From Bergeyella zoohelcum ATCC 43767 (GTDB lineage: Bacteria; Bacteroidota; Bacteroidia; Flavobacteriales; Weeksellaceae), in assembly GCF_000301075.1 (NCBI RefSeq), contig NZ_JH932293.1, positions 486,423-521,084 on the forward strand: 34,662 nucleotides of DNA, read 5' to 3'. Every line of letters starts with the position of its first letter. The stretch's first letter is position 1. The notes under the pieces are model-generated. The model saw only the letters and a list, made by a program, of their open reading frames with translations, had not been told where the DNA came from and did no database searches. A program made the translations under genes and the position numbers. Shown piece by piece: positions 3,841-31,966 of the stretch.

Positions 3841-3869
3841 ATAATAAAAAGTATAGTGTATATAAAAAA

Positions 3870-3892
3870 GCACCTCCTATTTTAGGAGGTGC
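3870..3892 (-). terminator. Terminator of the SOD gene
   Basis: Perfect 9-bp stem (3870-3878 with 3884-3892) and a 5-base loop. On the minus strand the stem is followed by TTTTTT. It lies about 20 bases beyond the SOD stop codon. Confidence 0.85.
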
Positions 3893-3912
3893 CATGGTTT
3901 ATCCGTGAAGTA

Positions 3913-4509
3913 TTATTTATTATAATTTTCTTCTACTTTATCCCAATTGATTATATCAAAGAAAACAGAAACATACTCAGGTCTTCTGTTCTGATAGTTA
4001 AGGTAGTAGGCGTGTTCCCATACATCTAATCCTAAAATAGGAGTTCCTTCGCATCCTACTCCTTCCATTAATGGATTATCTTGGTTAGGCGTAGAGCAAA
4101 CTTCTAAGCTACCATCTTCTTTTTTGCAGAGCCATGCCCATCCAGAACCGAATCTCGTCTTTGCTGCTTCTGAAAAATCTGTTTTGAACTTTTCAAAACC
4201 TCCATAAGCGTCTATTGCTTTTGCTACATTGCCCACAGGAGTTTTGCTTCCACCTGGTGTAAGGATGTCCCAAAATAATGAGTGGTTATAGTGCCCACCT
4301 CCGTTATTTCTAACGGCTGGTTTTTCAAATCCTTTTACACAGATTTCTTCGATGGAAAGGTTTTCTAAGTCCGTTCCTTTAATTGCATTATTTAAGTTGT
4401 CCACATACGCTTGGTGGTGTTTAGAGTGGTGGATTTCCATTGTTTTAGCATCAATGGTAGGTTCTAAAGCATCGTAAGCGTACGGTAATTTTGGTAATTC
4501 AAATGACAT
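3913..4509 (-). CDS. Superoxide dismutase, Fe/Mn family (Mn-type residues)
   Basis: Converts superoxide to oxygen and hydrogen peroxide. At 198 aa it is a typical single-domain Fe/Mn SOD with no signal peptide, so cytosolic. Metal ligands by alignment with E. coli SodA are H27, H76, D162 and H166 (in LDVWEHAYY). The sequence [11 protein letters not shown] (70-80) and Q143 in TPNQDNPL place the second-sphere glutamine where Mn-SODs carry it, whereas Fe-SODs carry it near the second histidine. That favours a manganese or cambialistic enzyme, but metal use cannot be fixed from sequence alone. It has its own terminator and a possible -7 box, so it is probably monocistronic. Rho lies upstream on the same strand, about 100 bases away. 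Confidence 0.96.
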
Positions 4510-4544
4510 ATTGTTATTTTTAAATGTTGAAAATATTTACAGAC

Positions 4545-4552
4545 CAAAAATA
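4545..4552 (-). promoter_or_regulatory. Putative SOD -7 promoter box (TATTTTTG)
   Basis: The minus strand reads TATTTTTG, fitting TAnnTTTG, 35 bases upstream of the SOD start codon. No TTG is present at the usual 17-23 base spacing, so the call rests on one box. Confidence 0.35.
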
Positions 4553-4610
4553 AGTCTTTTTCAGAAATGTGATTTATATTTTTGCAAGGAAATCTTATAT
4601 CATTATATGA

Positions 4611-6392
4611 TTATTTATTCATTGACATTAAGAATTCCTCATTGTTCATTGTAGATTTCAGACTTTTTTCTACAAACTCCATGGCTTCGGTGGAGTTCAT
4701 GTCAGAAAGGTATTTTCTGAAAATCCACATGCGTTGTCTGGTAAGTTCGTCATGGAGAAGGTCATCTCTTCGGGTAGATGATGCCACAAGGTCAATGGCA
4801 GGATATACTCTTTTATTGGCAATTTTTCTATCTAATACCAATTCCATATTCCCAGTTCCTTTAAACTCTTCAAAGATAACTTCGTCCATTTTAGAGCCAG
4901 TCTCTATCAGTGCCGTAGCAATGATGGTCAGAGAGCCGCCACCTTCTATATTCCTTGCGGAACCAAAGAATCTTTTGGGTTTATGGAGTGCATTGGCGTC
5001 TACTCCTCCGGAGAGAATTTTTCCAGATGCAGGCGTTACCGTATTGTAAGCTCTTGCCAATCGGGTAATGGAATCTAAAAGAATAACTACATCATGTCCA
5101 CATTCTACCATTCTTTGGGCTTTTGCTAGAACCAAATTGGCCACTTTTACATGTTTGTCCGCAGATTCATCAAAGGTAGAAGCGATGACTTCTGCATTCA
5201 CACTTCTTTCCATATCGGTTACCTCCTCCGGTCTTTCATCAATGAGGAGTACCATCATATAAGCTTCGGGGTGATTTGCTGAGATGGCATTAGCTATTTC
5301 TTTCAGTAGCATTGTTTTACCCGTTTTAGGGGGAGCCACTATCATTGCTCTTTGTCCTTTTCCTATCGGGGCAAAGAGATCTACTACTCGGGTGGAAAGG
5401 GTGGTAGATTTCTCTGTAAGGTTAAATTTTTCTTCCGGGAAGAGCGGTGTAAGGTGGTCAAAACTTACCCTGTCTTTAATAAAAGAAAGTTCTCTTCCAT
5501 TAACTTCGATAGGATTGAGTAATGAAAAATATTTTTCCCCTTCTTTTGGAAGTCTTACGATGCCCTTTACCGTATCTCCTGTTTTGAGTCCAAAATTTCG
5601 GATTTGAGCGGTAGAAACATACACATCATCTGGAGATGAAATATAGGAAAAATCGGATGAGCGGAGGAAACCATAGTTGTCAGGAAGAATTTCTAATACG
5701 CCCTCAATGGTTACTAAACCATCAAAATTAAATTCCTTTTTAGGCTCTACTTCTGGCTGAGGTTCTGCCTTTTTGGTAACAGCAGGGAGTAGATTGGGAT
5801 TATTCATAGGAGCCGAAGAGGTGTTTTGCTGTTGCCCTTGTTTAGGGGCATTGTTTTCATTTTTAGGCTCTTCGCTATTGTTTTTTTGTCTTTTTTTCTG
5901 ACGATTGTTTTGTTTAGCATTACCTTGCGGACGAGGTTTTGCCTGTGGATTTTGCTCTTCCACTTTTACTTCCTCTTTTGTTTCAGTGGCAGTAGTTTCC
6001 GCATTTGGGGTTTCTATTTTTTCAGAGGTGTTTTTATTTTTTCTCTTTCTGCTTTTAGCATTTTCAGAAGGTAGAGTGTTTTTTTCACTGGTTTCAGCCT
6101 CTGTAGAAGCGGTTTGTTCTACATTTTGAGTCTTAGCATTCTTCCTGCGAGTATTTCTTGCAGGCTTTTCTGTGGGGTGCTCTTGCGTGCTGGCTACCGC
6201 TTCTTCTGTGGGTTTCGGTGATTTTTCTTGAATATAATTCAGTACCGTATCTTTATTAGTAGCTTGAAAATCTAATATTTCAAAGACAATATCATTAGAT
6301 TTCGCTGTTCTTTGCATTTTGATTCCCAAGTCTTTAGCTATTTTTCTAAGCTCGGTCATCGGCTTTGCTTTTAGTACATCTAGCGTAAACAT
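4611..6392 (-). CDS. rho: Transcription termination factor Rho with long disordered insert
   Basis: Hexameric RNA-dependent ATPase that ends transcription. Its 593 aa exceed the E. coli protein (419). Order: Rho_N helical domain (1-45); a low-complexity Lys/Glu/Asn/Gln/Thr-rich insert of about 170 residues (about 55-220); the cold-shock-like RNA-binding domain (about 225-300); then the ATPase core. Core motifs: Walker A APPKTGKT (353-360), catalytic DERPEE (385-390), Walker B VVILLD (435-440), Q-loop [17 protein letters not shown] (461-477) and R-loop KGTGN (511-515). All catalytic residues are present. Large N-terminal inserts are known in Rho of Bacteroidetes and Actinobacteria and can add RNA binding. 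Divergently arranged with the DUF4293 gene. Confidence 0.97.
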
Positions 6393-8931: not shown

Positions 8932-9909
8932 CTAGCGAAATAATTCATCTACTAGTTTTTTGGCTTCGGAGCTAGGATTTCCTTTTCCATCTATGGCGTT
9001 TTGGAGGTGTTCAGCAAAGAGGGCACTGCCTTTTGTGCTTTCTTTGGCAAGCATGATGAGGTATTGCTGTACCCAAAACTCAAATCGTTTTTTGGACTGT
9101 TCTTGTCGAGTGGCTTCAAAAAGACCCGTATCTTTTTTCAATTGGATAAATTGTTCTACCGCTTCATATACCTTATCTATACCTTGGTTTTCTAAAGCAG
9201 AACCAAGAAGCACGGGTACCTTATAATTGGGAATAGGATGAGGCATAAACTGCATAGCTCTGTGTAGTTCTTGTTTGGTTTGTTTTGCCTTTTGGAGATT
9301 ATCTTCATGTACTTTGTTGATGAAAATAATATCTACCATTTCCATAATTCCTCTTTTGATCCCTTGGAGTTCGTCTCCTGCTCCTGTAATTTTCAAGAAG
9401 AGAAAAACATCTGATATTTCGGAGACCAATATTTCACTTTGCCCTACCCCTACGGTTTCTATCAGAATAGTATCATAGCCAGCAGCTTCACAGAGGAGCA
9501 TAGATTCATAAGTAGTATTGGCTACGCCACCTAAAAATCCAGAACTTGGGCTGGGGCGTATAAAGGCGTTTTCTGCGGTAGCAAGGGCTTCCATTCGGGT
9601 TTTATCGCCTAATATAGAGCCATTATTTTTAGAGGAACTTGGGTCAATGGCGAGTACGGCTACCTGATGGTTTTTTTGGATGGCATCAAGTCCAAAACTT
9701 TCTATAAATGTAGATTTTCCAGCACCTGGAACACCTGTAATGCCTATTCTTATAGAGTTTCCTGTATAGGGAAGAATTTTTTTTAGTAATTCATCGGCTT
9801 GTTGCCTATGTTCATTTTTTTTGCTTTCTATCAGCGTAATGGCCTTGGCGAGTAACCTTTTGTTACCCGCCCGTATACCATTAAAAAGTTCATCTGTAGA
9901 AAATCGCAT
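8932..9909 (-). CDS. meaB: MeaB/ArgK-type G3E P-loop GTPase
   Basis: A 325-residue GTPase of the MeaB/ArgK group, which protects and reloads the B12 enzyme methylmalonyl-CoA mutase. Walker A is GVPGAGKST (59-67); AIDPSSSKNNGSILGDKTRM, ETVGVGQSE and the base-recognition segment FINKVHEDN follow in family order. Length matches E. coli ArgK (331 aa). The frame opens further upstream, at 9969 inside the tryptophanase gene, but MRFSTDELF at 9909 fits the family start and leaves a 5-base gap to the tnaA stop, typical of an operon. No mutase gene is in the window, so its client must be encoded elsewhere. Confidence 0.92.
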   Translation of the reverse strand: MRFSTDELFNGIRAGNKRLLAKAITLIESKKNEHRQQADELLKKILPYTGNSIRIGITGVPGAGKSTFIESFGLDAIQKNHQVAVLAIDPSSSKNNGSILGDKTRMEALATAENAFIRPSPSSGFLGGVANTTYESMLLCEAAGYDTILIETVGVGQSEILVSEISDVFLFLKITGAGDELQGIKRGIMEMVDIIFINKVHEDNLQKAKQTKQELHRAMQFMPHPIPNYKVPVLLGSALENQGIDKVYEAVEQFIQLKKDTGLFEATRQEQSKKRFEFWVQQYLIMLAKESTKGSALFAEHLQNAIDGKGNPSSEAKKLVDELFR

Positions 9910-9914
9910 GGAAG

Positions 9915-11294
9915 TTATTCTGCTTTTTTCAGTTGGACAGTGAAGTGTCTCAAAATAGGAGACTCCCAAACGATGTCGTATCCAGAATTAATTTCATTTC
10001 TTTTTTCATAGACATTCTTTATTGCTGCGGCAATATAGTCCATGTGGTTATTGGTATAGGTTCTTCTTGGAATGGCTAATCGGACCATTTCTAATTTAGG
10101 ATACCTATTTTTTCTGGTTTGTGGATCTCTATCGGCTAAAAGCGTTCCAATTTCTACGGTTCGGATGCCTGCTTCTTTGTAGATTTCTAATGCCAAAGTC
10201 TGTGCTGGATATTGTTCTCTCGGTACATTCGGGAGAAATTTGAGTGCATCAATGAATACCGCATGTCCACCAATAGGAGCCTGAACAGGGATTCCGTACT
10301 CTTTTAGTTTCTCACCCAGATATTTTACTTGAGAGATTCTGCTGTGGAGAAAATCATATTCTGTAGATTCTTGGAGCCCTACGGCTAATGCAGCCATATC
10401 TCTCCCTGAAAGTCCACCATAGGTAATGTAGCCTTCATAAATAATGGTGAAATTAGATGCCTCGCGGTACAGTTCTTCATTATTTAAAGCGATAAATCCA
10501 CCAATGTTTACCAGTCCATCTTTTTTTGCAGACATGGTCATTCCATCTCCATGGGAGAATATTTCTTTACATATTTGTTTGATGGTCCAGTCTTTATAGG
10601 CTTCTTCTCTGGTTTTAATGAAATATGCGTTTTCTGCAAATCTCGCAGAATCAAAAAGCACGGGAATACCATATCGGTTAGAGAGGGCTCTTACTGCTTT
10701 GATGTTTTCCAAAGAAACAGGCTGCCCTCCAGCGGTATTATTGGTAATGGTTACGAGGCAGAATGGGATTTTTTCATTGCCATATTCTTTATATACTGCT
10801 TCTAATTTTTCTAAGTCAATATTTCCTTTGAAAGGATAAGGGTTTTCTGTATCAAAAGCCGCATCAATGGTACAATCTATGGCATGTGCTTTTCTGAACT
10901 CAATATGTCCTTTGGTGGTATCAAAATGTGAGTTTCCAGGGATGACCATTCCTTCTTTCACTAGTACAGAGAAGAGTACATTCTCTGCGGCTCTTCCTTG
11001 GTGGGTAGGCAGTAGATAAGGATATCCCGTGATGCTTTCTACGCTCTCTTGAAGTTCTTGGAAAGAACGTGCTCCGGCATAGCTTTCATCTCCCGTCATC
11101 AGGGCAGACCATTGTTTGTCACTCATGGAGCCAGTTCCTGAATCGGTCAAAAGATCAATGAAAACCTGGTTGGATTTTAGGCTAAAAAGATTATATTTAG
11201 CATCCTCTAGCCATTCTTCTCTTTGTTCACGCGTAGAAGGATAAATTTCTTCTACCATTTTTATTTTAAAAGGTTCTGCGTAGGGTAGTTTCAT
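9915..11294 (-). CDS. tnaA: Tryptophanase (L-tryptophan indole-lyase)
   Basis: PLP enzyme splitting L-tryptophan to indole, pyruvate and ammonia; 459 aa. The family also contains tyrosine phenol-lyase, and some of the sequence (SDKQW, YEGYITYGG) resembles that enzyme. The specificity residues say tryptophanase: D125 in HFDTTKGH where tyrosine phenol-lyase has Thr, I382 in VEIG where it has Arg, and H450 in LRHFT where it has Phe. The PLP lysine is K258 in SAKKDG, and DSARFAENAYF (215-225) is the cofactor region. Second gene of miaE-tnaA-meaB: 18 bases after miaE, 5 bases before meaB. No TnaC-like leader peptide was recognised, so E. coli-type control is unlikely. Predicts an indole-positive organism. 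Confidence 0.94.
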   Translation of the reverse strand: MKLPYAEPFKIKMVEEIYPSTREQREEWLEDAKYNLFSLKSNQVFIDLLTDSGTGSMSDKQWSALMTGDESYAGARSFQELQESVESITGYPYLLPTHQGRAAENVLFSVLVKEGMVIPGNSHFDTTKGHIEFRKAHAIDCTIDAAFDTENPYPFKGNIDLEKLEAVYKEYGNEKIPFCLVTITNNTAGGQPVSLENIKAVRALSNRYGIPVLFDSARFAENAYFIKTREEAYKDWTIKQICKEIFSHGDGMTMSAKKDGLVNIGGFIALNNEELYREASNFTIIYEGYITYGGLSGRDMAALAVGLQESTEYDFLHSRISQVKYLGEKLKEYGIPVQAPIGGHAVFIDALKFLPNVPREQYPAQTLALEIYKEAGIRTVEIGTLLADRDPQTRKNRYPKLEMVRLAIPRRTYTNNHMDYIAAAIKNVYEKRNEINSGYDIVWESPILRHFTVQLKKAE

Positions 11295-13764: not shown

Positions 13765-15372
13765 TTAGTGTGCTAAACTGGCAAAGAAATCATTGCCCTT
13801 GTCATCGGTGATGATGAAGGCAGGGAAATTTTTCACTTCTATTTTTCTTACTGCTTCCATGCCTAGCTCAGGGAAATCCACCACTTCCACGGAAAGGATG
13901 TTCTCTTTTGCCAAAATGGCTGCTGGTCCACCGATAGAGCCTAAATAGAAACCACCGTATTTATGGCAAGCATCGGTAACTTCTTTGCTTCTATTCCCTT
14001 TTGCAAGCATAATCATAGAGCCTCCTGCGGCTTGAAATTCATCTACATAAACATCCATTCTTCCTGCAGTGGTAGGTCCGAAACTTCCTGATGGCATGCC
14101 TTCTGGTGTTTTGGCAGGTCCTGCATAATATACAGGGTGATTTTTAAAATATTCAGGCATTGGCTTACCTTCATCTAGCATTTGTTTGATTTTCGCATGG
14201 GCAATATCTCTTGCTACGATGAGCGTACCATTTAGTGTTAATCTTGTCTTTATAGGGTATTTGGAAAGCTCAGCAAGGACTTCACTCATTGGACGATTAA
14301 GGTCAATGGCTATTGGTTCTTCTAAATGAGGTGGAGTAGCTGGAAGGTATTTCTGAGGTTCTGTTTCCAGTTGCTCTAGGAATATGCCTTCTTTGGTAAT
14401 TTTCGCTTTTATATTTCTATCTGCTGAGCAAGAAACGCCCATACCTACAGGGCAAGAAGCAGCATGACGAGGGAGGCGGATCACTCGCACATCATGTGTA
14501 AGATATTTCCCACCGAACTGTGCCCCAATGGCAGACTCTTGACATATTTTTTGGATTTTAGCTTCCCATTCTAAATCGCGGAAGGCTCTTCCTGTTTCAT
14601 CTCCTGTGGTAGGAAGATTATCATAATATTTTGCCGATGCCTTTTTCACTGCGGCCATGGTAGCTTCTGCAGAAGTTCCTCCGATGACGATGGCCAGGTG
14701 ATACGGTGGACATGCCGAGGTGCCTAGGTCTAAGATGCTTTTCTCTACCCATTCGGTCAGTGATTTCTCATTGAGGAGGGATTTTGTTTTTTGATAGAGG
14801 AAAGTTTTATTCGCAGAGCCTCCTCCCTTGGTAAGGAAAAGAAATTCATAGCTGTCTCCTTGTTTAGAATAAATATCTATTTGTGCTGGAAGGTTGGAGC
14901 CTGAATTTTTTTCATCAAACATTGTAAGGGGTACCACTTGGGAGTAGCGTAAGTTTCTCTTGTTAAATGTATTATATACACCTCTGCTAAGGAACTCAGC
15001 ATCATCTACTCCAGTATATACATTTTCTCCTTTTTTTGCCATTACTATCGCTGTTCCAGTATCTTGGCAAGAAGGTAATGCTCCTGCAACAGCCACGGCA
15101 GCATTTTCCAAAAGATTATAGGCTACGAATCGGTCATTATCTGTAGCTTCTGGGTCATCTATGATATTTCTAAGGCTTTGTAAGTGAGCAGAACGAAGCA
15201 TAAAAGAAACATCTGCCATGGCCGCCTCGGCCAGAAGTTCTAATCCTTTAGGGTCTACACGAAGGATTTCTCTATCGCCTACTTTTTCTACACTTACGAA
15301 GTCTTTTGTGAGTAATTTGTATTGAGTTTCATCTTTTTCAATCTGAAACATAGGTGCGTACTGAAAACTCAT
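13765..15372 (-). CDS. Fumarate hydratase, class I (iron-sulphur)
   Basis: Interconverts fumarate and malate in the TCA cycle. At 535 aa it is a class I enzyme like E. coli FumA/FumB, with both the N-terminal and C-terminal parts in one chain. The three 4Fe-4S cysteines are C102 (PSCQDTGTA), C221 (SACPPYH) and C315 (GVSCSADRN), each three positions below the E. coli numbering (105, 224, 318). [12 protein letters not shown] and LAKGNRSK lie in the C-terminal domain. The cluster makes it oxygen-sensitive. The neighbouring genes are unrelated, and no clear promoter box was found in the 360-base gap upstream. Confidence 0.96.
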
Positions 15373-15733
15373 GCGTTTTTAATTTAAAAAAATAAGGTAG
15401 TAAAATTACATAAAACCGATTTCCCCAAAAAATATTGAAGCCTGAGATTTGTAGGATTTTTTTTATTTAAAATGAGTTTAAATAATTCAGGGGTGCATTG
15501 TATTTGTTTAAAAGGAGTTATGGTGGATTTTAGTGCTATGCAATGGATTTAATTTAAGCAAAATCAAAAAGTCAAAATAAGTTCATATATTAATTTCGGA
15601 GAGTTGAAGTATAATATTTATGATATTTTTTTTCATTTTTTATTACACTTTTGTTTGGTGTGGCTTTTTTCAAGGTTGTTAAATTTTTCTTACTTTTACT
15701 TACTTTTTTACAAAGTGCAAATTTTTGACTAAA
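15373..15733. repeat. Intergenic gap with degenerate repeat, copy D
   Basis: Divergent gap between fumarase and the epimerase. The segment about 15550-15625 (AAAAAGTCAAAATAAGTTCATATAT, GGAGAG, then ATAATATTTATGAT) resembles 24740-24810, sharing GTTCATATAT (15581-15590 and 24766-24775) and the flanking order. The rest is AT-rich. A short minus-strand frame (15590-15778) runs into the epimerase gene and is not supported. No RNA gene is seen. Confidence 0.45.
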
Positions 15734-20267: not shown

Positions 20268-20302
20268 AAAAAGAAGCTGTCCCCAAAGGGCAGCTTCTTT
20301 TG
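20268..20302 (+). terminator. Terminator of secA
   Basis: Stem AAAGAAGCTG...CCC against GGG-CAGCTTCTTT with a small bulge and a CAAA loop, then TTTT. It begins 17 bases after the stop codon. Confidence 0.8.
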
Positions 20303-20343: not shown

Positions 20344-20377
20344 ATTTAGATTAAGTATAAATAATTTTATATATTTG
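20344..20377 (+). promoter_or_regulatory. Promoter and possible operator of the barrel-imelysin locus
   Basis: The -7 box TATATTTG (20370-20377) is an exact TAnnTTTG match, 20 bases before the ATG at 20398. Just upstream is an imperfect inverted repeat, ATTTAGATT/AAGTATAAAT (20344-20362), in the spacer position where a repressor would act. A Fur-type operator is an attractive reading given the gene content, but it is inference. Confidence 0.45.
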
Positions 20378-20397
20378 TAACATAAAAATTGGTTGCT

Positions 20398-21726
20398 ATG
20401 AAACTTTTTTATGTTTTTCCTTTGATGTTCAGTTCAATGATGGTGGTGGCACAAGGAATTTCAGAGCATGATGTTCCAGTTATTAAGAATGGAGAGAATG
20501 TTTCGCCATTAGAAAAATCTACGAGTAAATCGTTATTGAGTCCAGAAAGATTTTCACTTCGTGGATACGGAGCGGTAAATTACTATAACTATGGTCGGTA
20601 TGATACGGATTATTCCATTAAAAATAAAATGGATGCTGAAAGGTTAAATCTTTATTTAGAATACAAGTTCAATGACCAGTTGTCTTTTAAATCTGAAATA
20701 GAATTTGAACATGGTGGTACGGGAGTTACAATGGAGTTAGATCATCAGGAAGAAGCAGGAGAAATAGAAACGGAATTAGAAAAAGGAGGGGAAGTGAAAA
20801 TTGAACAGATTAATGTCAATTATGCGTTTTCTAAAGCTTTCAATATCCGTGCAGGAAGGCTGAAATTGTATTTTAATGCTGCACAGAATTTAGATTATCC
20901 TACTACCTATTTTACCACGCACAGACAGGAAATGGAAAATACTATTCTTCCTCTCGGTTGGTATGAGAACGGAATAGAGTTTCATGGAATAGTGAAGGAT
21001 AAGTGGAGGTATTATGCTACTGTAACCAATGGTTTAGATTCTTCTGGATTTTCGTCGGGACAATTTATTAAAAATGGTTACCAGCAGAAATTTGAGATGC
21101 AAAATGCTGAATCATTGGCGTATATGGCAAGGTTAGATTATCTTTTTGGTAGTCATAAGAATACTTTTGTAGGGGTAGCAGGATATTTTGGAAATACTAA
21201 TCCTAACCGCCCTAAAAAAGATATGAATGTAGATGGATATTTGAATTTGTTAACAGCCCATATTAATTATGATGAAAAGTATCTTCGTTTTTCGGGAGCT
21301 GTGTTATATGGTAATCTTCAGAATTCTGATAAAATAACGGTTGCAAATACCAAATTACCCAATGCTTTAGGAGCGAAAAGAACTCCCGTGGGGAAAAATG
21401 TATTGGGCATTTCTGCGGATATAGGTTATGAAATTTTGCACTTGTTTATTCCTTATGCTCAGCATAAACTTTACCCTTTTGTTCGTTATGATTTTTATGA
21501 CACGATGTACAAAACGGCTGGTTTGGTAATTAAGAAAGACCGTTGGGAGAGAAGTGTTTTTACAGGTGGAATTAATTATTTTATTCATCCACAGATTGTT
21601 TTAAAAGCACAATATTCTAATCGGGTTTTAGGTTCGGAACATGTGGATAGATATACCGTAGTGCCTACAGGTAAAAAGCAAAAGGAAAATTTCTTTTCTA
21701 TCGGGGTGGCATTCACTTTATTGTAA
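20398..21726 (+). CDS. Outer-membrane beta-barrel (porin-like) protein
   Basis: A 442-residue protein with a signal peptide (MKLFYVFPLMFSSMMVVAQ) followed by a periplasmic linker and, from about residue 50, alternating amphipathic strands (RFSLRGYGAVNYYNYG, RLNLYLEYKFNDQLSFKSEIEFEHGG and so on), ending FFSIGVAFTLL with a terminal hydrophobic strand. This is the layout of a Bacteroidetes phosphate-selective-porin-like or general barrel. An acidic insert (DHQEEAGEIETELEKGGE, about 115-133) could be a metal-binding loop. It lacks a TonB box and plug, so it is not a TonB receptor. The imelysin gene begins 29 bases after its stop, implying one operon. The start is ATG 20398; a TTG 9 bases upstream is in frame but less likely. 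Confidence 0.8.
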   Translation: MKLFYVFPLMFSSMMVVAQGISEHDVPVIKNGENVSPLEKSTSKSLLSPERFSLRGYGAVNYYNYGRYDTDYSIKNKMDAERLNLYLEYKFNDQLSFKSEIEFEHGGTGVTMELDHQEEAGEIETELEKGGEVKIEQINVNYAFSKAFNIRAGRLKLYFNAAQNLDYPTTYFTTHRQEMENTILPLGWYENGIEFHGIVKDKWRYYATVTNGLDSSGFSSGQFIKNGYQQKFEMQNAESLAYMARLDYLFGSHKNTFVGVAGYFGNTNPNRPKKDMNVDGYLNLLTAHINYDEKYLRFSGAVLYGNLQNSDKITVANTKLPNALGAKRTPVGKNVLGISADIGYEILHLFIPYAQHKLYPFVRYDFYDTMYKTAGLVIKKDRWERSVFTGGINYFIHPQIVLKAQYSNRVLGSEHVDRYTVVPTGKKQKENFFSIGVAFTLL

Positions 21727-21755
21727 ATTGATAATCAAAAAATAGTATAGTCAAA

Positions 21756-22841
21756 ATGAAACATTTAGAATTTGTTAAGAAAGCGACATTAGTTGCTGTT
21801 GCGAGTTTTGCTTTGGTAAGTTGTAGAGATACAGATAGTGTAGTGGGGGTAGAGGAACAAGGCGTTGTGCAAAAAGATGTTATTTCAAATATTACGAATA
21901 ATGTCATCATTAGCACTTATCAGGACTTGAACCAAAAAGCACTTCATCTTAAAAATAAAATTGATGAGATGACGGTGGGGAATGAACAGGCACTATTGGC
22001 GGCAAGACAAGCGTGGATAGAGGCTCGTTCACCATGGGAAAAATCAGAAGGTTTTCTCTATGGACCTGTAGATACAGAAGGTTTAGATCCAGCTTTGGAC
22101 ACTTGGCCAGTGGATGTTCAAGGGATGAATAATATCATTAATGGAAATCAGACCATTACGGCAGGTCTAATTGCTGCTAATAATGAAGTGCGAGGTTTTC
22201 ACCTTATAGAATATCTACTTTGGGGAGAAGATGGTAATAAACAGGCCCATCAATTTACTCCAAGAGAAATAGAATATCTAAAAGCAGCCGCCCAAGATTT
22301 ACAAAATAATACTCAGAAATTGCATTTGGGATGGATAACCTCTGGTGGAAACTTTGCACAGTATTTCCTTAATCCCAATCCGAATAGCCCCGCTTATAAA
22401 TCTGAAAAAGATGTTCTTGTAGAAATTACAGATGGAATTTTTACTATTTGTGATGAGGTGGCTAACACCAAAATAGCAGAACCTCTTACAGGAGATAATC
22501 AAGCTCCTGCACCAGAAAAGGAAGAGTCCAGATTTTCTCACAATTCCAAAAAAGACTTCTCTGATAATATCAGAAGTGTGAAAAATATTTATTTGGGCGT
22601 GTATGGAAATGGAGGGAATGGAAAAGGAATTTCTAATGTAGTAAAGGAAAAAAATGCGGCATTGGACAATGAAATAAGATTACAGATAGATGAAGCCATA
22701 ATGGCGATTGATGCTATTCCAGGAACATTTAGCAGTGCTATTTTTAATAATAGACCTGAGGTAATGTATGCCCAAGAAAAAGTAGCCAAACTAATGGATA
22801 CGATTGAGAAAAAACTGAAACCATTCATCAATAATTTATAA
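21756..22841 (+). CDS. Imelysin family (M75/IrpA-like) lipoprotein
   Basis: A 361-residue exported protein with a lipoprotein signal ending VSC (C23), so lipid-anchored, probably in the outer membrane or periplasm. It carries the imelysin hallmark GxHxxE as GFHLIEYLLWG (147-157; H149, E152). Imelysins are related to EfeO/IrpA proteins and are linked to iron uptake; the peptidase activity once proposed is doubtful. Residues WEKSEGFLYGPVDTEGLDPALDTWP (94-118) match the family N-half. A proline/glutamate-rich stretch follows at about 250. It sits directly between the barrel gene and the di-heme oxidoreductase, a partner combination seen with imelysins in other Gram-negative bacteria. Confidence 0.92.
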   Translation: MKHLEFVKKATLVAVASFALVSCRDTDSVVGVEEQGVVQKDVISNITNNVIISTYQDLNQKALHLKNKIDEMTVGNEQALLAARQAWIEARSPWEKSEGFLYGPVDTEGLDPALDTWPVDVQGMNNIINGNQTITAGLIAANNEVRGFHLIEYLLWGEDGNKQAHQFTPREIEYLKAAAQDLQNNTQKLHLGWITSGGNFAQYFLNPNPNSPAYKSEKDVLVEITDGIFTICDEVANTKIAEPLTGDNQAPAPEKEESRFSHNSKKDFSDNIRSVKNIYLGVYGNGGNGKGISNVVKEKNAALDNEIRLQIDEAIMAIDAIPGTFSSAIFNNRPEVMYAQEKVAKLMDTIEKKLKPFINNL

Positions 22842-22872
22842 CAATTTACAATCTTATGAATTCATTGAATGA

Positions 22873-22899
22873 GCAGCCCTGTATTTTTTATAGGGTTGC
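22873..22899 (+). terminator. Weak hairpin between imelysin and di-heme genes
   Basis: GCAGCCCT against AGGGTTGC (8 pairs, one G-U) with an 11-base loop, followed by TTGGTTTTTG. The T tract is poor, so it may attenuate rather than stop transcription into the next gene. Confidence 0.4.
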
Positions 22900-22992
22900 T
22901 TGGTTTTTGCTCCTGTTTAGAAAATGAGTAATTTCATATAAAATAGATAAGTGATTTAATTTCACAAGTTAATTTTTAAACCTAATTAAAAA

Positions 22993-24372
22993 ATGAAAAA
23001 CAACTATTGGATTATTGCACTCATTGTTTTTATTGTATTCTCTTGTAAGGATGAAGTGTTTACGCCTACCTATCAGCCTATTGAAGATCGTACTATGGCA
23101 GGAGGAGGAACCACTTATATGGAAGCTCATAGTAACTCATTTAGTAACCCAGCACCCAATCTTACCGCATCTGAACTTCAAGAGCATTTATTCGGAGATG
23201 CAGAGTTTGAAGCCTCATTCGTATCTGCTCCAGCAACTATCAATCCTGGTTTAGGACCTATCTTTAATCATACTTCGTGTATTAATTGTCATCCTAAAGA
23301 CGGGCGTTCCAAATTTCCAGATCATTTGGATTTGCCCAATGGCTTTTTTCTCCGAACCAGTATACCAGGAGTAGATGCTCATGGGGGACCAGTACCCACT
23401 CCAGGTTTTGGACTTCAGATTCAAAATCAAGCCATTATAGGTTATCAGCCTGAAGCCAAAATAAAAGTCGTTTTTCAGTATAAAACAGAAACACTCGCTG
23501 ATGGCACCGTGGTAGAATTAAGAAAGCCTATTTTCAGCCTAAAAAATCCTTATATCCCCGTTCCTTCTAATGCCATGTTTTCACCCAGAATGCCTATGCC
23601 TGTATTTGGATTAGGATTAATAGAAGCCATTCCTGAAAGCCGAATTCTAAGTCTTCAAGATGAAAATGATGCAGATGGAGATGGAATTTCTGGAAGAGCT
23701 AATTTTGTATGGAACCCTATTACCCAAAAAACTGAACTTGGAAGGTTTGGATGGAAAGCAAATACTGCTACGGTACTTCTCCAAACGGCGGGAGCTTATG
23801 TTCATGATATGGGAATCACTAATCCTGTTTTTCCTATAGAAACAGGATTTGGACAATCAAATGGTAGTGATGGACATTATGATGACCCTGAATTGGGAAC
23901 GCAAATTTTAAACGCAGTGGCTCAGTATTGTAGAACGCTTGCTGTACCTGCAGCGAGAAATGTTTTCAATGCTAATGTGAACAATGGATATAAAATCTTC
24001 GTCAATGAATTAGAATGTGCAAAATGTCATACACCAAGTCATGTTACAGGTAATAGTGATATTGCTGGGCTTTCCAACCAAAAAATATGGCCATTTTCTG
24101 ATTTTTTACTTCATGATATGGGAGCTGACTTGGCCGACCATAGACCTGATTTTCTTGCCAATGGCTATGAATGGAGAACGAGACCATTATGGGGATTAGG
24201 GTTAACCTTTAAGGTCAATGGGCATCAAAATTTTCTTCATGATGGCAGAGCTAGAAGCATTACCGAAGCCATACTTTGGCATGGGGGAGAAGCACAAAAA
24301 TCCAAAGAAAAATTTAAACAACTTCCTACCCAAAAGAGGAATGACTTATTGGCATTTTTAAACTCATTATAG
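22993..24372 (+). CDS. Di-heme c-type oxidoreductase (DUF1111/DHOR family) lipoprotein
   Basis: A 459-residue exported protein. The lipobox FSC gives a lipid anchor at C18. Two c-type heme sites are visible: CINCH (96-100) and CAKCH (342-346). Between them is a calcium-type loop DENDADGDGISG (223-234) and the family segments MPMPVFGLGLIEAIPE (200-215) and FGWKANTATVLLQTAGAY (252-269). DHOR proteins resemble MauG/CcpA di-heme peroxidases but their reaction is not settled; older annotations call them thiol oxidoreductases. Placed with an imelysin and a barrel, a role in redox handling of iron in the envelope is likely. It needs a cytochrome c maturation system encoded elsewhere. The 151-base gap upstream contains a weak hairpin. 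Confidence 0.93.
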   Translation: MKNNYWIIALIVFIVFSCKDEVFTPTYQPIEDRTMAGGGTTYMEAHSNSFSNPAPNLTASELQEHLFGDAEFEASFVSAPATINPGLGPIFNHTSCINCHPKDGRSKFPDHLDLPNGFFLRTSIPGVDAHGGPVPTPGFGLQIQNQAIIGYQPEAKIKVVFQYKTETLADGTVVELRKPIFSLKNPYIPVPSNAMFSPRMPMPVFGLGLIEAIPESRILSLQDENDADGDGISGRANFVWNPITQKTELGRFGWKANTATVLLQTAGAYVHDMGITNPVFPIETGFGQSNGSDGHYDDPELGTQILNAVAQYCRTLAVPAARNVFNANVNNGYKIFVNELECAKCHTPSHVTGNSDIAGLSNQKIWPFSDFLLHDMGADLADHRPDFLANGYEWRTRPLWGLGLTFKVNGHQNFLHDGRARSITEAILWHGGEAQKSKEKFKQLPTQKRNDLLAFLNSL

Positions 24373-24848
24373 ATATATCCTATACCATTACTATTTCTTC
24401 TCAAGGGAAATTATTTGTATTATTTAAATCTGTATAAAACTATTCAATGGAACATATTGAGAAGTGCATGCAGCGTTGGTTTTACTTAACCAGGGAAGTA
24501 TTAATAACGATTTAAGTAAATTATAGAATCGTTTGATAATCATAAGCATAGAAGCTGTCTCTACTTATTAGGATAAGAATAGTCATTAGGAAGTAAGGAA
24601 AATGAAGTTATAATATTCTTTTTCTTGTTATAAATCTATTAGATTTATCAAGAATGTTGAGTTTAATTTTAATGAATCTCATCTTTCCAGATTATTTGTA
24701 AAATACTAAAAGATACTTTGGAATCGTAAACTCAGGGAATTTAAATAAGATAAAAAGCAAGACGAGTTCATATATAGTAAGGAGAAGATAGAGCATAATT
24801 TATGATAAAAATCATTTATTTTAATTAATTCTAAATAAAAAATAAAAT
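24373..24848. repeat. Long intergenic gap with degenerate repeat, copy C
   Basis: About 500 non-coding bases between the di-heme gene and the first T9SS cargo gene. It carries blocks shared with other gaps: GAAGCTGTCTCTACTTATTAGG (24551-24572, as at 13203), ACTTTGGAATCGTAAACTCAGG (24715-24736, related to 13231 and 28751), and GTTCATATAT with flanks (24766-24775, as at 15581). It is the fullest copy of the family seen here. No ORF, tRNA or strong terminator is visible; the di-heme gene has no obvious hairpin after it. Confidence 0.5.
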
Positions 24849-24856: not shown

Positions 24857-24877
24857 TAGTTATTAAACTTTATGCCT

Positions 24878-26095
24878 ATGAAAATAACAATACTATCTGT
24901 TTTGTTCAGTATGGGAGCTATGGCTCAGCAGCATCATTTCGTGTCTCCTCAAGGAAAATTAAAATTAATCCATCAGGATAAGGAATACAATCAAACACAA
25001 GGATATGCAGTAGAAGAAGCCCGAACCAACTATGTGTATGAACAATACGGTAACAGATTAAATGAGATTCTATATAATAAGGTCAGTAGTAATGGAACAC
25101 TGAGTGTTTCAGCAAAAAAGATGATGACTTATGATGCACATGATAGAATTATCAAAGTCTCCGAAGAAGAAGCAGATGACCAAGGCGTTTTGTATTTGTC
25201 CACAGAAATCGAATATGATTATAACACAATGCATCAGCCTACTGAAATTAGAAGAATAACGCATGACCCTTATGATAATACTTTTGAAATCGATAGAAAG
25301 TATGTGTTTACTTATCATAATGGAAAGGTAAGCCAGATTCAGTGGTATTGGGGGTCTTCACTTACTCACCTATTTAATGATTCTTTCACTTATAATGCTC
25401 AAGACCAACTGGTAGAATATATCAGAACCACAGCTTCAGGAGAAAATAGGGACAGAAAAACTTATCAGTATAATGCGGCTGGAAAGCAGATAGGGTTTGT
25501 GTGGGAAAAATTCTCTAATAATGCATGGAAAAACCACTATAAATTAGAGTATCAATATGATATGAATCATGAAAATATTATTCAGGAAACTTCTTATCTC
25601 TTTACCAATGGTGCGTGGAAAGAAAATGTAAAAGTAGAATATGAGTTTGATCTCAATATTTTAGGTTCAAATGCTTATCAGTATAAAGATTATTCATATT
25701 ATCTAGGGCAACATGAGTGGGTGAATAATAAAAATGTGGTTTCAGAAACCCGTTATTATTCTTATGACCTTCATCCTACTATCAATACTTGGAAATATAA
25801 TAGAAGTGTTACATCTAATTATTTGGATAGTAGCTCACTTTCTACTGCTGAATTGGTTAATGCTAATAATTTAACTAAAACTTTAGTTTTTCCAAACCCC
25901 ACTGCTGAGTTTTTTAGGATAGCAAATCCCAATAATATAAGAAAGGTACAGCTTATAGATGCTTCTGGTAAGATAGCAAGAGAGTATTCTGCTAATACAG
26001 ATGAATATTCAGTACAAGGACTAGCAAAGGGGGGGTATATCGTTATCATTACAGATGAAAAATCTACAAAATCTACTCAATTAATAATTAAATAA
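24878..26095 (+). CDS. T9SS cargo protein with YD-like and W-centred repeats
   Basis: A 405-residue exported protein of unknown function. Signal peptide: MKITILSVLFSMGAMAQ. The body has YD-like segments (TYDAHDRII, FTYNAQDQLVEY, YQYNAAGKQIGF) as in RHS-type or YD-repeat proteins, then three or four repeats of about 30 residues beginning with a tryptophan: NAWKNHYKLEYQYD, GAWKENVKVEYEFD, HEWVNNKNVV...YYSYD, NTWKYNRSV. The last 70 residues are a type A T9SS sorting domain (LVFPNP, VQLIDASGK, LAKGGYIVIIT, QLIIK). It should be secreted or surface-attached. An in-frame ATG lies 6 bases upstream; either may be used. The next gene starts 3 bases after the stop, so the two are co-transcribed. Confidence 0.82.
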   Translation: MKITILSVLFSMGAMAQQHHFVSPQGKLKLIHQDKEYNQTQGYAVEEARTNYVYEQYGNRLNEILYNKVSSNGTLSVSAKKMMTYDAHDRIIKVSEEEADDQGVLYLSTEIEYDYNTMHQPTEIRRITHDPYDNTFEIDRKYVFTYHNGKVSQIQWYWGSSLTHLFNDSFTYNAQDQLVEYIRTTASGENRDRKTYQYNAAGKQIGFVWEKFSNNAWKNHYKLEYQYDMNHENIIQETSYLFTNGAWKENVKVEYEFDLNILGSNAYQYKDYSYYLGQHEWVNNKNVVSETRYYSYDLHPTINTWKYNRSVTSNYLDSSSLSTAELVNANNLTKTLVFPNPTAEFFRIANPNNIRKVQLIDASGKIAREYSANTDEYSVQGLAKGGYIVIITDEKSTKSTQLIIK

Positions 26096-28840: not shown

Positions 28841-31606
28841 TTATATCTTCGTCGAAATCGGTTGAAACTTAGTCAAGTTAATTCCTTCTACAGCTACTTT
28901 GTATTCTTCCATAGTTGGGATTCTTCCTAAGATAGCTGAAAGTACCACTACCGGTGTAGATGCTAAGAGCGATTCTCCTTTTTTGTCGGCACGGTCTTCT
29001 ACCACACGCCCTTGAAACAAACGCGTAGAAGTGGACATTACCGTATCTCCTTTTTCGGCTTTCTCTTGGTTACCCATACAAAGGTTGCACCCCGGACGCT
29101 CCAGATACATAATGTTCTCGTATTCTGTTCTTGCCGTTTGTTTAGGTAACGCATCGCTGAACTCAAAACCTGAATACTTTTGTAGATATTCCCAATCTCC
29201 TTCGGCTTTTAGCTCATCGATGATGTTGTAAGTAGGTGCGGCAACCACCAGCGGTGCATTGAATTTTACTTCGCCGTATTGTTTCTCCAAGTTTTTAAGC
29301 ATTTGCGAAACAATTTTCAAGTCGTCTTTATGCACCATACAAGACCCTACGAAACCTAAATCTACTTTTTTATTATCTCCGTAAAATGACAACGGACGAA
29401 TAGTATCGTGAGTATATCGTTTTGAAATATCCTCGTTGTTTACATCTGGATCGGCAATCATTGGTTCATCAATCAAGTCCAAATCAATGACCACTTCAGC
29501 ATAATATTTTGCATCAGCATCAGGTTGAAGAGCTGGTTTTTCACCCGAACGAATTTCCGCAATACGCTTGTCGGCTTTTGCTATCAGTCCTTTTAGTACT
29601 TGATTTTCGTTGTCCATACCTTTCTCTATCATGATTTGGATACGAGATTTAGCAATTTCCAACGATTCAATCAATGTATCATCTTGCGAAATACAAATTG
29701 ATGCTTTGGCTTTCATCTCGGCCGTCCAATCCGTGAAAGTAAAGGCTTGGTCTGCCAGTAAAGTTCCGATATGTACCTCGATGATTCTTCCTTGGAAGAC
29801 ATTTTCACCGTCAAATTGTTGTAGCATTTGCAATTGTGTAGCATGAACCACATCACGGAAATCCATGTGTTCTTTCATACTTCCTTTGAAGGTAACTTTC
29901 ACAGATTCAGGGATTGGCATAGAAGCCTCACCTGTTGCCAAGGCTAAGGCAACGGTACCCGAATCAGCACCAAAGGCCACCCCTTTAGACATACGCGTGT
30001 GCGAGTCTCCCCCAATGATGATTGCCCACTCATCCACTGTAATATCGTTCAATACTTTGTGGATAACATCCGTCATTGCATGGTATTCCCCTTTGGGGTC
30101 ACGAGCCGTAATGACACCAAAATCGTTCATGAACTTCATCAATTTCGGGATATTTGCCTGAGCTTTTTTGTCCCAAACCGATGCCGTATGACATCCCGAT
30201 TGGTAAGCTCCATCCACGATAGGAGAAATCACCGTAGCCGCCATAGCTTCTAACTCTTGAGCGGTCATCAGTCCTGTAGTATCTTGAGAACCAACGATAT
30301 TTACTTTTACACGAACATCTGAACCTGCATAAAGTGTTTTCCCTGGTGCTACCCCCACTGCATTTTTATTAAAGATTTTTTCTACAGCTGTTAATCCTAC
30401 TCCTTCTTTTACCACTTCTTTGGCAGGAGCGAAGACTTGAGGAGCTTGGATTCCCAAAGTTTGAGCGGCGAAAGTTTGGATTTTTTTACCGAAAACAATC
30501 GCGTACGAACCACCTGCTCTGATGAATTCTAATTTTTGCGGTGTGAAAGACTTAGAAATATCTTTTAATTCTTGGTCTCCGTTGTATAATTTTTTAGTTT
30601 TTGTATTGATGGTCAAAACAGTACCTGTTTCCACAGAGTACACTTGTTCCAGAATGATATCGCCTTTTTCATCACGCACCACATTGCCATCGGCATCGGT
30701 TTTCTTGACCCAGTTTTGTAGGTCAATTCCGATACCTCCCGTTACATCTACTGTAGTTAAGAAAATTGGTGAAATACCGTTCGTTCCGGCTACAATCGGA
30801 GCGATGTTTACAAATGGTACATACGGAGATGCCTGTTTTCCTGTCCAAAGAGCCACATTGTTTACCCCCGACATACGCGAAGACCCTACCCCCATTGTTC
30901 CTTTTTCAGCGATAAGCATCACTTGTTTATCAGGGTGTGCGGCTTTCATCGCCACGATTTCCGCTTGAGCTTCAGGGGAAATCATGGACTTTCCGTGCAA
31001 TTCACGGTCAGAACGAGAGTGGGCTTGGTTTCCTGGTGATAATAAATCCGTAGAAATATCTCCTTCGGCGGCAATATAAGTTACCACTTTAATTTCCTCT
31101 GGAACTTCTGGTAATTGGGTAAAAAATTCTGCTTTTGCGTAGCTTTTCAATATATCTTTTGCAATTGCATTTCCTGCTTTATACGCTTCCGCCAAACGAG
31201 CTGTATCGGCATCGTAAAGGAATACTTGTGTTTTGAGTACTTCAGCGGCTTTTTGAGCAATCGCTTCGTCGTTTCCAAGGGCTAAATCCAATAACACTTT
31301 AATGGATGGACCACCTTTCATGTGCGACAATAACTCAAAAGCGAAGTCGGTAGAAATTTCTGCAATATTTTCTTTTCCAAGGACGATGTCTTTCAAAAAC
31401 TGAGCTTTTACTCCTGCTGCAGAAGTAGTTCCTGGAAGGGTGTTGTAGATGAAATGGTGAATGGCATCTGCTCTATGCGAACTATTTTCATCTTTGATTT
31501 GCTCGATGATTTCGCTGAGCAATTCTGCCCCATCAATGGGTTTAGGGTGTAAGCCCTGTTGTTTTCTTTCTTCAATTTCTTGAATGTAATCGTTGTAAAG
31601 ATTCAT
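28841..31606 (-). CDS. acnB: Aconitate hydratase B (bifunctional aconitase/2-methylisocitrate dehydratase)
   Basis: Converts citrate to isocitrate; AcnB enzymes also act on 2-methylisocitrate. At 921 aa it is somewhat longer than E. coli AcnB (865). The N-terminal HEAT-like helical domain (about 1-160) is followed by the swivel domain and the catalytic domains. 4Fe-4S ligands: C756 (GSCMVHKDD) and C840/C843 (PGCNLCMGNQ). IIGGDSHTRMSKGVAFGADSG is the active-site block. I chose ATG 31606 (MNLYNDYIQEIEERK), where family members start; an in-frame ATG 21 bases upstream is less likely. Monocistronic. An imperfect hairpin lies in its leader. By eye its base composition is slightly richer in G+C than its neighbours. 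Confidence 0.96.
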   Translation of the reverse strand: MNLYNDYIQEIEERKQQGLHPKPIDGAELLSEIIEQIKDENSSHRADAIHHFIYNTLPGTTSAAGVKAQFLKDIVLGKENIAEISTDFAFELLSHMKGGPSIKVLLDLALGNDEAIAQKAAEVLKTQVFLYDADTARLAEAYKAGNAIAKDILKSYAKAEFFTQLPEVPEEIKVVTYIAAEGDISTDLLSPGNQAHSRSDRELHGKSMISPEAQAEIVAMKAAHPDKQVMLIAEKGTMGVGSSRMSGVNNVALWTGKQASPYVPFVNIAPIVAGTNGISPIFLTTVDVTGGIGIDLQNWVKKTDADGNVVRDEKGDIILEQVYSVETGTVLTINTKTKKLYNGDQELKDISKSFTPQKLEFIRAGGSYAIVFGKKIQTFAAQTLGIQAPQVFAPAKEVVKEGVGLTAVEKIFNKNAVGVAPGKTLYAGSDVRVKVNIVGSQDTTGLMTAQELEAMAATVISPIVDGAYQSGCHTASVWDKKAQANIPKLMKFMNDFGVITARDPKGEYHAMTDVIHKVLNDITVDEWAIIIGGDSHTRMSKGVAFGADSGTVALALATGEASMPIPESVKVTFKGSMKEHMDFRDVVHATQLQMLQQFDGENVFQGRIIEVHIGTLLADQAFTFTDWTAEMKAKASICISQDDTLIESLEIAKSRIQIMIEKGMDNENQVLKGLIAKADKRIAEIRSGEKPALQPDADAKYYAEVVIDLDLIDEPMIADPDVNNEDISKRYTHDTIRPLSFYGDNKKVDLGFVGSCMVHKDDLKIVSQMLKNLEKQYGEVKFNAPLVVAAPTYNIIDELKAEGDWEYLQKYSGFEFSDALPKQTARTEYENIMYLERPGCNLCMGNQEKAEKGDTVMSTSTRLFQGRVVEDRADKKGESLLASTPVVVLSAILGRIPTMEEYKVAVEGINLTKFQPISTKI

Positions 31607-31966
31607 AATAGACTTTAGTTTTATCAAAAATTGGAGCCAATTTCTTAGTGTATTAAAGAATTGGGCTAAAAAACATTGAACTGAGTCAATGGAAAATCAT
31701 TTTTGTAAGTCAGTGTATTTTCAAAGCAACACTATTCCACGCAAAAATACTAAAAGGGATTAATATTTTAATGAGATTGAGAAAGATTGAAAATGTAATA
31801 AATCTTATTTATAATCATTCTATTTAACAGTGGTCTTTTTATGAAGATAGCAAGTAAAGAACAATCAAATTGTAAAGTGAAAAGATGTAATTTATCATGT
31901 TTTATTTCAGAACATTGGTATAAACTTTGTGAATTATATACCTAGTAAATTTAAAATCATTATGAT
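31607..31966. other. Divergent intergenic gap between acnB and the PepSY-like gene
   Basis: About 360 bases, AT-rich, with no ORF or RNA gene recognised. The only structure seen is an imperfect inverted repeat, AGCCAATTTCTT (31635-31646) against AAAGAATTGGGCT (about 31655-31667), in the acnB leader. No exact TAnnTTTG box with good spacing was found for either gene. Confidence 0.4.

Follow-up and report, generated by a model that had tools for sequence, protein, structure and literature searches.

A predicted plugless porin beside an imelysin and a di-heme oxidoreductase: a conserved gene trio with a probable role in iron acquisition in Bergeyella zoohelcum

The 34,662-nt stretch of Bergeyella zoohelcum ATCC 43767 analysed here (contig NZ_JH932293.1; hereafter, the window) contains, downstream of secA, three plus-strand open reading frames (ORFs) encoding an outer-membrane barrel, an imelysin and a di-heme oxidoreductase (DHOR). 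We consider it rather probable that these genes constitute a Fur-repressed unit for iron acquisition at the outer membrane and that the barrel is a dedicated part of it. An iron-scavenging unit with its own pore is proposed because the order of the trio is kept in very different bacteria and because a switch resembling that of an iron repressor precedes it. The identity of the genes, their order and its conservation, the box upstream and the conservation of an acidic loop in the barrel are direct observations. A first-pass annotation of this DNA had suggested a possible iron system. Such a system, to which the barrel truly belongs, is well supported by gene order (kept in 80 of 80 related loci), by Fur-type boxes, by iron genes next to some barrels of the family and by RNA-seq data from Bacteroides.

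Imelysins have long been tied to iron, through a mechanism that to our knowledge is not known. The pairing of an imelysin with a DUF1111/DHOR protein is described as Fur-regulated in several bacteria and is thought to serve iron uptake (PMC3143127), and a Bacteroides locus is known to respond to iron (PMC10434189). In the open-licence literature searched, we found no description of a porin as the fixed partner of one imelysin branch, of an acidic loop that distinguishes one clade of barrels, of a conserved box before the barrel gene or of sister systems with flavin and Rieske proteins. The pore offers an outer-membrane part for one branch of imelysins and makes the question testable. If iron passes through it, this would be a regulated, TonB-independent route across the outer membrane, present in many Bacteroidota, gut species included, and in some other phyla.

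Results

Organization of the locus

The three consecutive reading frames described in the first-pass annotation are present with exact coordinates, and the description given there proved correct wherever it was checked. The features of the locus are as follows.

20398-21726, plus strand: predicted 16-stranded outer-membrane porin of type I with acidic loop L2 (AlphaFold2 model, structure matches to OprO/OprP, synteny); an alternative TTG start lies at 20389
20710-20790, plus strand: codons of acidic loop L2, residues 105-131 (alignment, AlphaFold2 model, loop composition)
21756-22841, plus strand: imelysin (PF09375) lipoprotein of the IrpA/PIBO branch (Pfam, alignment, structure comparison)
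22993-24372, plus strand: di-heme oxidoreductase (PF06537, DHOR) lipoprotein (Pfam, alignment)
20344-20362, plus strand: Fur-box-like palindrome ATTTAGATTAAGTATAAAT (Fur matrix, mismatches to the consensus)
20370-20377, plus strand: -7 promoter box TATATTTG, 8 bases 3′ of the Fur-like box (read from the sequence)
20269-20301, plus strand: terminator-like hairpin after secA, the upstream border of the unit (hairpin scan)
22870-22902, plus strand: terminator-like hairpin between the imelysin and DHOR genes (hairpin scan)

Conservation of the gene trio

Gene order was compared in two collections. In a phylum sample of 395 genomes, own genome included, homologues of the barrel were found in 56 genomes, of the imelysin in 90 and of the DHOR in 59. 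The order barrel, imelysin, DHOR on one strand occurs in 17 of the 395 (the window's genome among them) and in G038, a genome from the relatives search; these 18 loci are the sampled cassettes. All 12 best barrel matches outside the window lie within such cassettes. A small Rieske-type protein is encoded between barrel and imelysin in four of the 18 (assigned by Pfam in one, by cluster in the others), and two sister genomes encode a heme oxygenase between imelysin and DHOR (L043, 8429-9025, by Pfam; L045, 10303-10932, by similarity). Leaving aside the L043/L045 sister pair, no flanking gene cluster is shared by more than three cassette loci.

The second collection, the named loci, comprises the best 80 of at least 364 barrel relatives on contigs representing one genome per species, and was retrieved through the barrel alone with two peptide patterns from its acidic loop. 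An imelysin gene comes next, on the same strand and within 200 bases, in all 80, and a DHOR gene follows it in 76, lying about 1.1 kb further on in L125 and in L147. As for the exceptions, the DHOR gene precedes the barrel in L141, the contigs of L112 and L119 end after the imelysin gene, and no DHOR was found in 3.8 kb in L134. Six named loci (L138, L155, L162, L163, L165 and L169) have, directly behind a type I barrel, a circularly permuted imelysin, the form of the solved Bacteroides ovatus imelysin PIBO (PMC3143127). By their labels, the named loci span Flavobacteriia, Saprospiraceae, Bacteroidales, Ignavibacteria and Salinivenus/Aliifodinibius-type genomes, together with metagenome-assembled genomes (MAGs) of Poribacteria, Latescibacterota, Gemmatimonadetes, Myxococcales, Methylococcales and Halothiobacillaceae; in Pseudoalteromonas donghaensis HJ51 the cassette lies, by annotation, on an 843-kb replicon. 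The Poribacteria loci come from related MAGs, seven of them sharing one identical box, and some genomes of the phylum sample seem to recur among the named loci (L115 and L042 have the same box), so that counts are not numbers of independent events.

The trio is thus a real unit: the barrel is kept beside the imelysin in 80 of the 80 named loci, as the first-pass annotation had expected of relatives, and this synteny rules out chance neighbours. In a FastTree phylogeny, the 94 barrels of type I form one clade (support 0.78), which, together with the single constant partner, makes a general solute porin merely sitting at this place unlikely. The window barrel falls in a flavobacterial clade (support 1.0) in the company of Myroides, Flavobacterium, Moheibacter and similar genera; loss in relatives is therefore a simpler explanation than horizontal acquisition from outside the order, which is disfavoured. 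A mobile element was also considered and dropped; the plasmid collection has homologues in 16 records (five of them opened), all below 60% identity. Records from P. distasonis and Pseudoalteromonas in that collection carry barrel, imelysin and DHOR by annotation, neither imelysin nor DHOR is annotated beside the barrel homologue in the Manganitrophus record, and the remaining two opened records are sparsely annotated or not at all.

A Fur-type box upstream of the barrel gene

For the flavobacterium R. anatipestifer, a 19-base Fur box with 11 sites has been published, and the four promoters tested were shifted by Fur protein (PMC5609570). A symmetrised matrix built from these 11 boxes (the Fur matrix) has its highest score in the whole window at 20344-20362, on the very repeat ATTTAGATTAAGTATAAAT that the first-pass annotation had picked out as an imperfect inverted repeat before the first gene. 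This score was reached in none of 200 simulated windows and in one of 20,000 simulated regions matching the upstream region in length and composition. The site has 3 mismatches to the R. anatipestifer consensus, on the reverse strand. Across the genome there are 15 distinct sites with at most 3 mismatches (21 strand-wise matches, versus 3 for a reversed control pattern), and seven of the 14 others adjoin TonB-receptor plug, hmuY, sdh (succinate dehydrogenase), hemA, ccoG-like or ferritin genes. The genome also encodes FeoB and one protein of the Fur family. Judged by its letters, the inverted repeat is a Fur-type box, and a putative Fur box in the promoter is what makes the trio a candidate member of the Fur regulon. 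The -7 box claimed in the first-pass annotation is found as TATATTTG at 20370-20377, a label that takes TAnnTTTG to be the flavobacterial -7 motif, as we assume; a sigma-70 promoter scan stayed at background level (17 sites against 20.1).

Boxes in relatives were called significant at p≤0.01 against simulated upstream regions, and the gene starts of the 18 sampled cassettes were checked by hand. Of these 18, 10 have a significant Fur-matrix site ahead of the barrel gene, some of them in GC-rich genomes, and L055 has a box at p=0.036. Among the named loci, the Fur matrix finds a box before the barrel in 19/80, against 3/80 before the imelysin and 0/76 before the DHOR. With the E. coli Fur consensus, the corresponding counts are 15/80, 0/80 and 2/76. 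Of the 15 loci with an E. coli-type box, 14 belong to Poribacteria MAGs and the remaining one to a Halothiobacillus MAG; in 14 of these boxes 16-18 of the 19 bases match the consensus. Two loci are common to both lists, whose union covers 32 of the 80. On this pattern matching, the position ahead of the barrel gene is occupied by a Fur-type box of one kind in some lineages and of a second kind in others, within one and the same operon.

In P. distasonis the type I barrel gene is followed by those for the imelysin, the DHOR and a second porin (Porin_O_P), and then by a 237-residue ORF. "Thiol oxidoreductase" is a common database name for DHOR proteins. In RNA-seq of iron-depleted B. thetaiotaomicron, the porin BT2477 rose 146-fold, the thiol oxidoreductase BT2478 133-fold, the peptidase M75 BT2479 230-fold and the hypothetical protein BT2480 284-fold, and the BT2473-BT2482 locus is reported to be strongly induced in colitis as well (PMC10434189). 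Because of the gene order in P. distasonis, BT2480 is likely to be the type I barrel, and the analogy suggests that BT2477 is the second porin, of the Porin_O_P type. By gene names and order, the Bacteroides locus apparently corresponds to the cassette of the window.

Structure of the barrel and its acidic loop

The barrel protein has 442 residues and a signal peptide recognisable by eye. It has no match in Pfam or NCBIfam, hence none to the TonB plug PF07715; it stays below the cut-offs of the Pfam profiles BBP2 and Porin_O_P, and its profile found no significant sequence relative among solved structures (best E 0.15). The related L042 barrel is above the BBP2 cut-off (28.9 vs 26.2), and the L072 barrel is below it. 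An AlphaFold2 model from an 18-row alignment has 16 strands and lacks a plug (predicted local distance difference test, pLDDT, 80.9; predicted template modelling score, pTM, 0.80). Porins of many kinds rank first when this model is searched with Foldseek. In VIA-align, OprO/OprP come top (Z 25.3-25.2, root mean square deviation 4.4-4.5, 328-332 residues aligned), by a small margin over other 16-stranded porins (Z 24 to 21). Since the model can be superposed on solved porins, a 16-stranded porin fold is indicated, and we predict a passive 16-stranded pore without a TonB plug. The first-pass view that the barrel lacks a plug is thus supported by Pfam and by the model alike; PF07715 was also absent from the four cassette barrels and the three other family barrels scanned. 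A TonB-dependent receptor is ruled out by the missing plug.

The acidic loop had likewise been noticed before, and residues 105-131 are indeed rich in Glu. In an alignment (A4) of the 14 barrels whose cassettes contain no Rieske gene, collected without using the loop, eight Glu in and beside it are invariant in 14/14 (E102, E104, E113, E119, E124, E128, E132 and E136), as are G107, G121, G130 and G131. Across the 94 type I barrels the loop contains, in the median, 8 acidic residues and 1 basic residue; this conservation is partly due to selection, 80 of the barrels having been chosen by loop patterns. In the 33 type II, 4 type III and 4 type IV barrels the loop is short, with acidic medians of 1, 1 and 2. 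Counting strands in the model would put L2 on the extracellular side.

The imelysin and the DHOR

That the second gene encodes an imelysin lipoprotein with the GxHxxE motif, as annotated in the first pass, is evident from a PF09375 match (E=2.9e-63, 214.6 bits vs a cut-off of 23.5), a lipobox ending at C23 and GFHLIE at residues 147-152. Residues G147, H149 and E152 of the motif are invariant in 17/17 cassette imelysins, and so is a second acidic metal site formed by E95, E98, D115 and E257. The closest structures are 3n8u and 4ecg; with one constant numbering offset, the second site aligns with the site columns of 4ECG, in which it consists of E111, E114, D131 and E299 (PMC9174327). The EfeO model gives 22.3 bits on this protein against a cut-off of 270. 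The genome contains one PF09375 gene, and a second, GxxxxE imelysin beside the DHOR, as in the PA4370-PA4373 type, was not found in it.

The third protein proved to be the lipid-anchored di-heme DHOR that had been announced: it matches PF06537 (E=5.2e-117, 391.8 bits vs a cut-off of 22), has a lipobox at C18 and carries the heme motifs CINCH (96-100) and CAKCH (342-346), both CxxCH being invariant in 16/16. Its model (pLDDT 77) gave weak structure matches only. The region has 5 sites with a terminator-like hairpin, where shuffled sequence gave 3.0 ± 1.7. Since one of them (22870-22902) precedes the DHOR gene, the DHOR may be less expressed than the barrel and the imelysin.

Discussion

How might such a unit work? 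Under iron shortage, Fur would leave its box, which the -7 element follows closely, and expression of the three genes would start. The barrel, predicted to be a plugless 16-stranded pore, would provide a dedicated passive path, at the mouth of which loop L2 could attract Fe2+ or a weak iron complex. The imelysin may then take over the metal through its two invariant acidic/histidine sites, which are conserved here. Metal binding at these imelysin sites has been shown by others, for relatives only. The DHOR might change the redox state of iron, which would be trapped on the imelysin and then released to the FeoB encoded in the genome; it could act in either direction, oxidation trapping iron on the imelysin or reduction feeding FeoB. 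Imelysin and DHOR might even sit outside the cell, a lead offered by starts that resemble an export signal, scored without a control set. The passage of iron, the redox step and the substrate are what we infer, and we count the heme oxygenase in the L043 and L045 cassettes as support for a role in iron.

Several observations weigh against this proposal. The other seven of the 14 further Fur-like sites in the genome stand by no recognised iron gene, with Pfam scans covering only L080 and L083 of these (L080 is an Mla-type ABC operon; L083 is the type IX secretion system (T9SS) gene of the window). The nearest sampled relative (G038, locus L072) has a box at p=0.12, six of the 18 sampled cassettes have none at p≤0.01, and the loci recognised as Bacteroidales reach that threshold with neither the Fur matrix nor the E. 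coli consensus. In the barrel model, loop residues 106-129 fall below pLDDT 50, so that the loop is unstructured and the model does not place it in or at the pore, and the four cassettes with a Rieske gene lack the loop yet have imelysin and DHOR. Iron is not the sole candidate metal, since imelysin relatives bind Zn, Cu and Ca among others (PMC9174327). In the window, a terminator-like hairpin parts the DHOR gene from the imelysin gene. The cassette is also dispensable: it is missing from 73 of the 90 imelysin-bearing sampled genomes, 4 of 35 own-family genomes have an imelysin, all at a far lower score, and the barrel is absent from the eight own-family genomes shown without a match. Finally, 14 of 18 further loci have an imelysin followed by a DHOR without a barrel homologue (phmmer E≤1e-3), and several such loci carry a second imelysin, as in P. 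aeruginosa. Because many imelysin–DHOR pairs lack this barrel, the porin belongs to one branch of these systems.

Other functions for the same genes have to be weighed. The barrel could be a membrane anchor or display platform for imelysin and DHOR as surface lipoproteins, iron entering elsewhere through TonB receptors, which we regard as rather unlikely. Barrel–lipoprotein pairs such as BtuB-BtuG are the model for such an arrangement. After the lipobox the window DHOR starts CKDEV and those of relatives CQKDDQ, CSKDDK or CKEDVA, and the imelysins of relatives start CSDDD, CSDN and similarly. A crude pattern, a few of whose matches are plainly false, assigned a lipobox to 62 of 80 imelysins and 45 of 77 DHORs; of these, 41 imelysins and 32 DHORs have at least two acidic residues at +2 to +6. 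The export signal of Bacteroidota surface lipoproteins is K-(D/E)2, SDDFE or SDDDD, with position +3 optimal (PMC5080379), whereas the DHOR has its K at +2, and the window imelysin, starting CRDTDS, fits loosely. Moreover, no periplasmic lipoproteins were scored as a control, and many of the loci come from phyla without a defined signal. A defence against peroxide during iron starvation, in which the DHOR would be a peroxidase, the imelysin would sequester iron from Fenton chemistry and the barrel would supply small solutes, seems to us quite unlikely. It agrees with the position of DHOR, by name, in the neighbourhood of di-heme peroxidases and MauG, with weak fold matches of the DHOR to a hydrazine synthase chain (E 6e-4) and CcpA (E 0.04), and with Leptospira, in which imelysin genes, listed also among iron-limitation genes, and a neighbouring thiol peroxidase/oxidoreductase gene rise with peroxide (PMC7567364). 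The Fur boxes, the large response to iron depletion and the iron importers adjoining some members of the barrel family speak against it.

Two further readings concern what would cross the membrane. The barrel and its redox partners could form an electron conduit used in metal reduction or extracellular electron transfer, in which heme, flavin and Rieske proteins would be interchangeable carriers, as the FMN-binding (33/43), ApbE (13/43) and Rieske (4/43) proteins at barrel loci without an imelysin might suggest. Two hemes would, however, be too few to span a membrane, no multiheme cytochrome was seen among the proteins examined, without a search aimed at one, and Fur-type control points to acquisition; we consider a conduit very unlikely. 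Most unlikely of all, in our judgement, is heme itself as the substrate, the pore admitting heme or a heme fragment that the lipoproteins bind and degrade. The heme oxygenase between imelysin and DHOR in L043, its homologue in L045, and a Fur-like box shared with an hmuY-type gene in the window genome would fit, but the oxygenase occurs in two of the 18 sampled cassettes, both from sister genomes, and in none of the other 16. A Fur-repressed unit for iron acquisition, with the barrel as its proposed pore, is the reading of the trio that we favour.

Comparison with known systems

Among described systems, PA4370-PA4373 of P. aeruginosa (Xu et al. 2011) is alike in having an imelysin lipoprotein, a DUF1111/DHOR protein and Fur control, and has been proposed as an outer-membrane cluster without EfeU (PMC3143127). 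The window differs in that a porin gene comes first and a single imelysin gene is present; the text of PMC3143127, the gene contexts of its Figure 8 aside, never uses the word "porin". The Bacteroides locus BT2473-BT2482 likewise unites porin, thiol oxidoreductase and peptidase M75 and is strongly induced without iron; it is larger, adding CcsA, a fimbrillin and a regulator (PMC10434189). R. anatipestifer RAYM_09779-09794 is flavobacterial and Fur-regulated and includes an imelysin lipoprotein, but its other products include a TonB-dependent receptor as well as a vitamin K-dependent gamma-carboxylase-like protein (PMC5609570), where the window has a predicted plugless porin.

The EfeUOB/EfeM ferrous iron transporters share the M75 domain with its HxxE metal site and a heme peroxidase as partner. 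The genome has no match to PF03239, the FTR1/EfeU permease, which rules out membership in EfeUOB. The Pseudomonas porins OprO/OprP, the best VIA-align matches, resemble the modelled barrel in their 16-stranded fold. OprP is specific for phosphate by way of an arginine ladder, whereas the window barrel carries a Glu-rich loop. Identity to OprO/OprP is 11-12%, and since other 16-stranded porins score almost as well, no special kinship is indicated.

The wider barrel family

Barrels of the family also occur away from imelysins, in 43 homologous loci in which representatives were scanned with Pfam and the others labelled by similarity to those seeds. An FMN-binding protein stands beside the barrel in 33 of the 43 (one gene away in one of them), an ApbE protein in 13 and a Rieske protein in 4. 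Directly upstream of the barrel, FeoB is encoded in 3/43 loci and a bacterial solute-binding protein in 3/43. Four of the 43 have a DHOR; a Rieske protein accompanies it in three of these, and in one an Nramp transporter and an iron-dependent repressor are encoded downstream; in L172 (2818-8503) the row reads DHOR, Rieske, barrel, Nramp (with a Usp domain) and an iron-dependent repressor with a FeoA domain. The pattern, drawn without a comparison set of unrelated porins, is a plugless barrel together with a redox protein of the envelope, to which an iron importer is added in a minority of loci.

It is conceivable, though doubtful, that this barrel stands at the head of a family of outer-membrane iron porins that lack a plug and are paired with exchangeable redox proteins of the envelope. 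Such porins would let bacteria import iron across the outer membrane independently of TonB, with redox trapping, at the surface or in the periplasm, as the driving force. Type I would combine the di-heme DHOR and imelysin with a dedicated Glu-rich iron-collecting loop; type II would use an FMN-binding protein and ApbE, sometimes with FeoB or a solute-binding protein; type III would use a Rieske protein and a short DHOR, once with Nramp and an iron-dependent repressor.

Other observations

A second widespread system consists of barrel, FMN-binding protein and a small ORF without a Pfam hit, in some loci with ApbE, FeoB or a solute-binding protein upstream (L177, L197, L201, L199, L200, L178, L183-L190 and others). 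In a B. xylanisolvens plasmid record (L220, 11278-14285) a DUF2023 gene lies about 1.6 kb before the barrel homologue. In Bacteroides sp. 51 (L161), a flavodoxin gene and an unscanned 137-residue ORF lie upstream of the cassette (3785-4712), and the gene directly behind it encodes a ResB/CcsA-type cytochrome c assembly protein (9093-11179). Different imelysins beside HTTM and TonB-receptor genes, in three cases with DUF4856, occur in L063, L066, L067, L068 and L071, and form a TonB-linked imelysin arrangement.

Elsewhere in the window, the second-best site of the Fur matrix (15465-15483) lies 93 bases before a fumarase gene (13765-15372, minus strand, checked with Pfam), and the fourth-best (31807-31825) about 180 bases upstream of an aconitase ORF (28841-31627, minus strand, checked with Pfam); the iron-responsive list of R. 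anatipestifer includes a fumarate hydratase gene and an aconitase gene (PMC5609570). The third-best site (24818-24836) is just 5′ of the gene for a T9SS-sorted protein (24872-26095), which may for this reason be regulated by iron, and this gene and its neighbour may encode iron-regulated surface proteins.

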